From the NCBI GenBank assembly GCA_015064355.1, contig SVSJ01000003.1:1-64000 (forward strand): 64,000 nt of DNA. Reading direction: 5' to 3'. Positions 44,462 to 47,317 of the stretch are shown one piece after another (within the stretch, counting starts at the first letter, position 1; every line of letters starts with the position of its first letter). A model generated the notes under the pieces. The model did not search any database, was not told the DNA's origin, and saw only the letters and a list, made by a program, of their open reading frames with translations. Origin of the DNA: Oscillospiraceae bacterium. Its GTDB lineage: Bacteria > Bacillota > Clostridia > Oscillospirales > CAG-272. The translations under genes and the position numbers were made by a program.

Positions 44462-44472
44462 TCGCCCCTCCA

Positions 44473-44498
44473 CATATATTATCTTAAGACAATATATG
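44473..44498. repeat. 26-bp near-perfect palindrome CATATATTATCTTAAGACAATATATG
   Basis: 12 of 13 symmetric base pairs, directly upstream of RBS of the 44150..44461 gene. Confidence 0.8.
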
Positions 44499-44511
44499 CG
44501 AAAACGGACAA

Positions 44512-45255: not shown

Positions 45256-45861
45256 TCAATAACTGAAATCAAACACCTCCGCAAGCATCTCAAGAAGTTT
45301 AAATCTGATCTTCACGTCTCCCCGCTCGCCGGTTATCATCCTGTACTCGCTGGGTGTAAATCCCACCGCAACGTACTCAGGCGACTTTTCGGCAACCGCG
45401 AAGGATGTGCAGATGGACGGGAACAGTATGCACCACCAATTCTTCCCCTCTCCTCTGCCGAGGGTTACGCGGAGAGAATTATATATCCCTGCGGGGAGTG
45501 ATACATCATCATACTCACGGCGAGGATACCGTTCACGTCCAAGTTCTACCTTGACTTCGCACGATTCACCGTTTTCACTGACGCATTTTTCCGCTGCCAA
45601 TTTGATCTCGTTGCGCATTCTCTCGATTACCGTATATGCCTCTTCGTAGCTTTGGCATTCGCTGACCCTCTCGCTGACACACAATAGCACTGCATCCCGC
45701 ACTTTAAGCTTTAATGCCTGGTCTTCATCGGAATCTGACTCTGCAATCACGTGGAGTCTGAGCACGTCATTATATATTTCAGCCTCACCGTAAACGGGTA
45801 TTACAGATAATAGAGATACTGCAGCAAGAACAGATGCGGCAAAAACAATAAGTCCTTTCAT
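45256..45861 (-). CDS. spoIIR: stage II sporulation protein R
   Basis: LRLHVIAESDSDEDQALKLKVRDAVL, GEGKNWWCILFPSIC. Confidence 0.93.
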   Translation of the reverse strand: MKGLIVFAASVLAAVSLLSVIPVYGEAEIYNDVLRLHVIAESDSDEDQALKLKVRDAVLLCVSERVSECQSYEEAYTVIERMRNEIKLAAEKCVSENGESCEVKVELGRERYPRREYDDVSLPAGIYNSLRVTLGRGEGKNWWCILFPSICTSFAVAEKSPEYVAVGFTPSEYRMITGERGDVKIRFKLLEMLAEVFDFSY

Positions 45862-45902
45862 AAATATAGCTCCTTTTGAAACGATAACAAATTCAATGAT
45901 TT

Positions 45903-45931
45903 ATTATCTCCCTAAAGGAGCTTTATTATTC
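45903..45931 (-). promoter_or_regulatory. candidate sigma-F-type promoter of spoIIR
   Basis: minus strand GAATA-N15-GGAGATAAT compared with GYWTA-N15-GGnnAnAnT. Confidence 0.5.
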
Positions 45932-46691
45932 AATAATTTCGTTTTTTGTCAGAAGAATGAAAAGTTCTCGCAATAGACACGGGGAACACAGCTTCGGCAC
46001 CCAGGAAATAGAGATGCTTTGCCATGGTTTCGATAGTTGCGCCTGTGGTGATTATATCGTCAAACACAATATACTTGCCGCCTTTTCTGATTCTTTCCCG
46101 GATAGGCACAAGAGATGTCTCTGCGTTTGAAAACCGCTCTGCAGCAGAAAGGCTCTTCTGCACATTTCCGTGGTTCGTGCGGTTGAAGGTGGGGGAGAAT
46201 TTGATGCCAAGCTTCTTCGCTATTTTCCGGGCAATCTCCTCGCTTTGATCGAATCCTTTTTCAGCGTACTTCTCCACAGAACGAGGTGGGTATGTGATTA
46301 TCCATTCGGCGAGGTCAACTCCTTCGCGCTCAAACAGGGATTTGATCTCACGTGCAAGGATTGTAGCAAAATAGTCGGCAAATGCTCCGCGGTCTTTCAG
46401 TGAAAGAATCATTCCCTCCGTTATTCTCTCCTCTGACCACGTTTTCTTGCTTTTGTAGAATGTAAGGGCGATGAATCTCTTACCCGCAATCTCTGTTTTT
46501 GTATGTGACGTAAAGTCAGCGCGGCAGGTACATTTGCTTGCAGGCTTGGAGCATTCGGGGCATACTAGGAAAGTTTCTCTGATGAATTTGCCGCTGCATT
46601 CATCACAAAGCTGGCTACCGTCAGTTGCATTTTTGCATAGCAAGCAATTTGACGGGATCAGCAGGTTGATTATTTTTTGTAAAAATCCCAT
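45930..46691 (-). CDS. comF: ComF family phosphoribosyltransferase-like protein
   Basis: N-terminal Cys-rich zinc finger (CLLCKNATDGSQLCDEC), PRTase motif YIVFDDIITTGAT. Confidence 0.9.
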   Translation of the reverse strand: MGFLQKIINLLIPSNCLLCKNATDGSQLCDECSGKFIRETFLVCPECSKPASKCTCRADFTSHTKTEIAGKRFIALTFYKSKKTWSEERITEGMILSLKDRGAFADYFATILAREIKSLFEREGVDLAEWIITYPPRSVEKYAEKGFDQSEEIARKIAKKLGIKFSPTFNRTNHGNVQKSLSAAERFSNAETSLVPIRERIRKGGKYIVFDDIITTGATIETMAKHLYFLGAEAVFPVSIARTFHSSDKKRNY

Positions 46692-47265: not shown

Positions 47266-47298
47266 AAAAAATCACCCCATACGATTATATGAGGTGAT
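47266..47298 (-). terminator. terminator downstream of the PBP gene, abutting the next start codon
   Basis: ATCACCTCATA-taatcg-TATGGGGTGATTTTTT on minus strand. Confidence 0.75.
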
Positions 47299-47317
47299 CT
47301 CTTAGTATAATTACTGA

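Follow-up and report, generated by a model that had tools for sequence, protein, structure and literature searches.

A sigma-F-type promoter nested in a conserved hairpin at the ribosome site of spoIIR in Oscillospirales

Introduction

How does a cell keep a sporulation gene silent when the gene in front of it is read in the same direction? Premature making of the spoIIR signal would upset cell fate, and it is rarely asked what keeps such genes silent in a compact genome whose neighbouring genes run in the same direction. The question arises at the spoIIR locus of an Oscillospiraceae bacterium, located within a DNA stretch of 64,000 nucleotides that was analyzed here as a whole (hereafter the window). 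An earlier note, made from the sequence alone, had proposed that a sigma-F promoter is nested in a hairpin that masks the ribosome site of spoIIR, such that read-through transcripts from comF would be silenced and forespore transcripts translated.

Arrangements of this kind have been described elsewhere. In phage T4, a fold in the long early transcripts covers the ribosome site of gene e (lysozyme) and of I-TevI. The late promoters are located next to or within the DNA for the 5' strand of this fold, and late transcripts, which lack the strand, are translated; experimental support is available (PMC3014915). In Bacillus subtilis, a hairpin of 20+ bp has been proposed to block translation of sigG from spoIIG read-through transcripts (PMC5942855, citing Sun et al. 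1991), and transcripts that begin at the sigG promoter itself are unable to form it (PMC5942855).

Here, we conclude that the promoter of spoIIR is likely (probability about 0.78) to be built into a hairpin so that only transcripts from its own promoter can be translated. The architecture, the paired evolution of the arms and the spread across the order are supported by computation. The silencing of read-through, the use of sigma-F, the exact start and the benefit to the cell are inferred; no start has been mapped and there are no reporter data.

The spoIIR locus and its promoter

The gene was identified as spoIIR by a family search, with 152.4 bits to TIGR02837 against a curated cut-off of 151.9, so the earlier gene call held. 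Homologues within the genus share 43–68% identity. The features of the locus are:

45256..45861, minus strand: spoIIR coding sequence, 201 aa, stage II sporulation protein R (TIGR02837)
45930..46691, minus strand: ComF-like gene 5' of spoIIR, co-directional (phosphoribosyltransferase and zinc ribbon, weak matches)
45926..45932, minus strand: -35 element TGAATAA, sigma-F type (motif in 124/132 loci, score >5 in 207/213)
45903..45911, minus strand: -10 element GGAGATAAT, wholly within the 5' arm of the extended hairpin (motif and fold)
45870..45877, minus strand: Shine-Dalgarno (SD) of spoIIR, AAAAGGAG (sequence; unpaired probability in the long versus the short transcript)

Read 5' to 3' on the minus strand, the comF stop codon TGA (45932-45930) overlaps the -35 element TGAATAA, and is followed by a 14-nt spacer with AGCTCCTTT, the -10 element GGAGATAAT, a leader with AAAAGGAG and the spoIIR ATG at 45861. 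The positions given previously for GAATA (45931-45927), GGAGATAAT (45911-45903) and the ATG (45861) were all confirmed on this strand. A sigma-70-like match, CTGACA-N16-AATAAT, is located just 5' of the sigma-F element (45952-45925, minus strand), and transcription starting there would include the greater part of the spoIIR hairpin's 5' arm.

The promoter was modelled as a two-block motif by expectation maximisation on 132 spoIIR upstream regions, seeded with a B. subtilis-like sigma-F consensus. The motif converged on TGNATAA-N14-GNNNANANT, with scores >3 in 124 of the 132 loci and >5 in 94%, as compared to about 2–3% of shuffled regions. In a wider set, to which one locus per family of the class had been added, 207 of 213 loci across Clostridia scored >5. 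The promoter in the window, TGAATAA-N14-GGAGATAAT, has the correct spacing and is a full match to the lineage consensus, since in these bacteria A usually occupies the one position at odds with the B. subtilis pattern (A for Y). The sigma-F match "at all but one position" reported previously is thus corrected to a complete match with the lineage consensus.

The genome itself encodes SpoIIAA-, SpoIIAB- and SigF-type ORFs in that order (L262, a spoIIA-type operon). The first two were identified by reading rather than by family search; the SigF-type ORF scored 218 bits, which is under the curated cut-off of 321, and its best matches were SigF models. The genome also encodes sigG. We conclude that the spoIIR promoter is of the sigma-F type, as had been assigned previously. 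The use of sigma-F is inferred from sequence alone, and use by sigma-F cannot be separated from use by sigma-G on this basis.

Predicted folding of long and short transcripts

The minus strand of the window was folded as RNA from 45925 to 45855, which placed the following features around the promoter:

45868..45922, minus strand: complete promoter-nested hairpin, 23 bp (-23.9 kcal/mol, z -6.1, 0/200 shuffles)
45914..45922, minus strand: anti-SD arm AGCTCCTTT, within the spacer of the promoter (predicted to pair with 45868-45876)
45893..45898, minus strand: apical loop CATTGA, 6 nt, with the predicted sigma-F start within it at about 45896-45897 (fold; start predicted, not mapped)
45868..45892, minus strand: 3' arm ATTTGTTATCGTTTCAAAAGGAGCT, the would-be 5' leader of a sigma-F transcript (fold)

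The 9-bp perfect inverted repeat described in the earlier note held, in that AGCTCCTTT (45922-45914) and AAAGGAGCT (45876-45868) are perfectly complementary. Its extent held only in part: the 9 bp form the base of a 23-bp hairpin with a stem of 9 + 4 + 10 bp, one mismatch and one bulged base. None of the 200 dinucleotide shuffles folded as well as this sequence. An RNA that begins at 45896, and therefore lacks the 5' arm, folded at -5.8 kcal/mol (z +1.2), no better than its shuffles. The predicted probability that the SD is unpaired was 0.02 in the long RNA versus 0.49 in the short RNA of the window, and the corresponding predicted medians in the genus were 0.07 versus 0.32 (p 1e-3).

Bacterial transcription generally starts 6–7 nt after the -10. 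As the 5' arm holds the whole of the -10 and the apical loop holds the predicted start, a sigma-F transcript would carry the 3' arm only. The previous claim that such a transcript starts downstream of the masking arm is thereby supported, although no start has been mapped. With regard to the T4 gene e type of control, the spoIIR locus has a promoter within the 5' strand that, from its predicted start, would yield a transcript lacking that strand; the burial of the SD in a stable stem of the long transcript is met by prediction only.

A different explanation is that the hairpin regulates the sporulation transcript itself, as a small hairpin at the ribosome site like that of B. subtilis sigG mRNA, as a thermosensor or as a riboswitch. 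In support of this, B. subtilis sigG mRNA has such a leader hairpin (PMC5942855), and the short spoIIR transcript retains a weak stem over the SD. However, the short transcript does not fold beyond the level of shuffles, and a start at the predicted site removes a median of 78% of the expected pairs in the genus (53% in outgroups). Moreover, no Rfam family came near threshold for the hairpin, the best score being 21.2 bits versus a gathering score of 74. We regard this explanation as very unlikely.

Conservation and compensation across relatives

The conservation of the hairpin was analyzed by three alignment-free tests, based on SD-pairing stems, swapped arms and geometry. Column-wise covariation on a MAFFT alignment was dropped, since the arms slide in register between species and the columns are misaligned; the swapped-arm test was used in its place. 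The thresholds were our own (stem score 22, rank 5%, T-run 4) and the test windows were picked after the first loci had been seen, but the swapped-arm and fixed-window tests took all loci with a called promoter, failures included. Among the relatives, incomplete metagenome bins are numerous. Both promoters and start codons come from automatic calls, and some of the starts are wrong, as in L107, where the true start seemingly follows a long hairpin; the counts are therefore probably conservative.

Strong SD-pairing stems, at the score observed in the window, were present in 41% of 132 spoIIR loci versus 5% of 390 control genes, mostly drawn from the same loci (p 7e-18 over the whole score distribution). 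In the swapped-arm test, the SD segment of each species was paired with its own and with all others' spacer/-10 segments in 191 loci. The own arm came within the top 5% at 16 of the 21 genus loci, where 1 was expected (p 2e-6), in 14 of 41 in the family, in 41 of 67 on further contigs (mostly Oscillospirales) and in 8 of 62 in outgroup Clostridia. Control genes passed a like test at a rate of 12.5% rather than the nominal 5%, and the excess of own arms is thus less than the nominal rate would imply. When the same fixed windows were applied throughout, the own arm outperformed 95% of control upstream regions in 86% of loci in the genus, 49% on the further contigs, 32% in the family and 13% in the outgroups. 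Outgroup Clostridia are at background for the hairpin, while the promoter is still conserved across Clostridia. Within the genus, no convincing hairpin was seen in 3 of the 21 loci (L009, L011 and L020), and about two thirds of the sampled family loci failed the 5% swapped-arm test.

The arms are different words in each species, such as AACCTCCGGT/ACCGGAGGTT in L012, CTCCTGTC/GACAGGAG in L006 and CCTCCCGGGA/TCCCGGGAGG in L019. Loci with the hairpin include those of the cultured spore formers Ruminococcus bromii (L123) and Pseudoflavonifractor (L079). The pairing is kept while the letters of the arms change in matching pairs, which argues that the hairpin is very probably a real safety catch. 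Thus, Oscillospirales relatives have retained the hairpin, with arms that diverge between species and compensate for each other's changes. Arms that were neither conserved nor compensated in relatives would have refuted the reading of the earlier note; the pairing was retained and the reading was not refuted.

These data bear on two simpler explanations. The first is chance complementarity to a purine-rich SD, for which it can be said that about 12.5% of control genes pass the like test. Against it stand the 0/200 shuffles in the window, the 86% of genus loci in the fixed-window test and the swapped-arm result in the genus; chance is all but excluded, and is refuted for the genus as a whole. 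The second is that the inverted repeat acts as DNA, either as a palindromic operator for a forespore regulator or as a cruciform that tunes the promoter. The repeat does overlap the -10 and the spacer. However, its arms differ by species (AGCTCCTTT, ACCTCCGGT, CTCCTGTC, CCTCCCGGG) without loss of pairing, and the 3' arm always follows the SD. Conserved letters would be expected of a protein-binding site, whereas here they vary, which disfavours an operator and makes the DNA-level explanation very unlikely.

The geometry of the hairpin was also retained. Across relatives, the start position that would break the largest number of pairs peaks at +3 to +8 nt after the -10, which places the apex of the hairpin on the predicted start. 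The apex fell between +1 and +15 in a fraction of 0.57 of the loci in the genus, 0.59 in the family, 0.72 on the further contigs and 0.29 in the outgroups.

Upstream genes and the terminator form

Neighbouring genes in the genus were read individually, without automatic strand calls, which gave spurious antisense ORFs in high-GC loci. The readable neighbours 5' of spoIIR are co-directional and belong to differing families: ComF in the window and L002, a glucuronyl esterase-like protein in L006 and L016 (and in others by a shared C-terminus), a solute-binding-like protein in L005 (weak Pfam match), an EEP nuclease in L012 and a GATase_5 domain protein in L009, which is without the hairpin. The hairpin thus goes with spoIIR and not with comF, being kept while the upstream gene changes.

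A T-run, defined as four or more consecutive T within the 14 nt that precede the start codon, was found in 65% of hairpin loci in Oscillospirales, as compared to 5% of hairpin-less loci and 7% of control genes. The leaders of L006 and L012 are examples with a T-run. Stem strength tracked the T count (Spearman -0.62, duplex energy versus T count). Given its frequent T-run, the hairpin often resembles an intrinsic (Rho-independent) terminator as well as a mask of the ribosome site. In the window, the 3' arm is followed by ATATTTA; with this poor T-run the criterion for an intrinsic terminator was not met, the terminator scan made no call, and termination is unlikely at this spoIIR gene. In the spoIIR loci L022, L023, L031, L043 and L065, the hairpin overlaps the -10 and ends in a T-run, with a separate SD further 3', which amounts to the same idea reduced to a terminator.

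Hairpins in the genus were weaker behind a separate terminator located before the promoter (median -15.1 versus -23.7 kcal/mol, p 0.03). For all Oscillospirales loci, 33% were hairpin-positive with a separate terminator versus 59% without (p 0.07), which is merely suggestive. The direction fits insulation and this remains a possible interpretation, given the small numbers.

It could be argued that the hairpin is merely the intrinsic terminator of the upstream gene, squeezed against spoIIR for space, with the SD in the 3' arm as a by-product. The frequent T-runs, the co-directional upstream genes in the genus and the weaker hairpins where a separate terminator exists speak for this. Against it, the hairpin stays with spoIIR as the upstream gene changes, persists behind complete terminators (L007, L014, L015, L017 and L018) and has a poor T-run in the window, and its apex is on the predicted start, which an ordinary terminator does not need. 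We consider a terminator-only origin unlikely. The hairpins resemble intrinsic terminators in having a stem followed by a T-run in most hairpin-bearing relatives, and differ from them in that the next gene has its SD in the 3' arm, the 5' arm houses the promoter and the loop contains the predicted start; that of the window, in addition, has a T-run too poor to qualify. The simplest function common to all, which is inferred, is to block expression from upstream-derived transcripts by masking, termination or both.

Proposed mechanism and comparison with known systems

In our preferred reading, that of a promoter built into the hairpin, a polymerase arriving from the upstream gene (comF in the window) would copy the 5' arm, which consists of the promoter spacer and the -10. 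The copied arm would fold onto the leader and bury the SD of spoIIR. In most hairpin-bearing relatives, namely those with a T-run, the hairpin could also terminate transcription just 5' of the ATG. A polymerase with sigma-F would instead start in the apical loop and produce a transcript with the 3' arm only, leaving the ribosome site open. The insulation against read-through that had been inferred previously is supported overall, but silencing as such remains an inference. The reading is amended in that the hairpin has a terminator form in most of the relatives that carry it, is tied to spoIIR rather than comF, and is also found at sigG and spoIVA in the genus.

The comparison with phage T4 made in the earlier note held. 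As in gene e and I-TevI, the long RNA of spoIIR is predicted to mask the ribosome site and the promoter is nested by the 5' strand; the T4 cases differ in having phage late promoters and a lysis or homing gene, in place of a sporulation sigma factor and a cellular developmental signal. B. subtilis sigG is alike in its large read-through hairpin and its sigma-F promoter class, and differs in being another gene in another order of bacteria. Unlike what is described for B. subtilis sigG, the spoIIR case includes compensating changes in many Oscillospirales lineages, a frequent terminator form and a further occurrence at spoIVA. In the literature searched, from which subscription papers were mostly outside the scope, there was no report of such a hairpin for spoIIR or for Oscillospirales. 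Given the T4 mechanism and the B. subtilis sigG proposal, the mechanism is known in kind; new are the gene, the compensation at the level of an order, the frequent terminator form and the loop-centred start.

The spoIIR case thus extends a mechanism that is known in phage T4 and has been proposed for one B. subtilis gene. To the question of how such genes are kept silent, the hairpin points to an answer that is encoded in, and predictable from, the sequence and has been maintained through compensating changes in an order made up mostly of gut bacteria. A promoter-nested hairpin could also serve as an insulated, sigma-specific expression module.

The same design at other sporulation genes

The sigG gene of the same genome (L173/L157, contig C36, about 5594-5521, minus strand) has ACCTTTCCC in the spacer and GGGAAAGGT as the SD. 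In the genus, spoIVA (L286-L299) has the arms ACCTCCGCAT/ATGCGGAGGT with a T-run after the SD, and its 5' arm holds a sigma-E-like -10 (CATANNNT). Stem scores in the genus were above controls for both sigG (p 3e-5) and spoIVA (p 6e-7), and own arms outperformed swapped arms (p 2e-3 and p 7e-4, respectively). The same tests showed no promoter-nested hairpin design for spoIIIAA, SASP and gpr in the genus. The spoIVA gene had been included as a mother-cell negative control, and failed as such, since it carries the hairpin. In the same genome, the neighbour of sigG is divergent, yet sigG has the same kind of hairpin; adjacent read-through therefore cannot be the whole reason at sigG.

According to a bolder reading, which we hold to be as likely as not, Oscillospirales use a general "self-erasing" promoter-terminator module at sporulation commitment genes (spoIIR, sigG, spoIVA and perhaps others). 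If true, a start site in the loop of a hairpin that is both terminator and ribosome-site mask would make these genes deaf to all but their own sigma factor. In some sigG leaders (L174-L178), a 5' arm of the GCCTCCTCC type seems pairable with the terminator arm GGAAGGGGCGTTTTT or with the SD itself.

Only 8 of 381 genes in the window and about 400 kb of the same genome had a stem score as high as that of spoIIR; two of the 8 are spoIIR itself and sigG. A third is located just 5' of an M50 peptidase gene and resembles spoIVFA of a spoIVFA-spoIVFB pair, judged by position and peptidase family only. In the window, a second hairpin, CGCATATATTGTC..GATAATATATGTG followed by GAGGGGCGAATG (44462-44502, minus strand), precedes an ORF of 103–104 aa that overlaps an M50 peptidase ORF (spoIVFA-spoIVFB-like pair); within the 5' arm of this hairpin, CATATATT is similar to a -10 of the sigma-E type. 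Another tight hairpin with a T-run (ATCACCTCATATAATCGTATGGGGTGATTTTTTATG; 47266-47305, minus strand) is located 5' of comF, directly before a 169-aa membrane ORF for which neither Pfam nor NCBIfam gave a match. Its 3' arm would be the SD, and CATATAAT is in the 5' arm. Finally, a 475-aa ORF elsewhere in the genome (L158, contig C36:17444, plus strand), which we take by eye to be a SpoVAF/GerA-type germination protein, is preceded by TGAATAA-N14-GTCAATACT, with the arm pair CACCG..CGGTG and TTTTT before the ATG.
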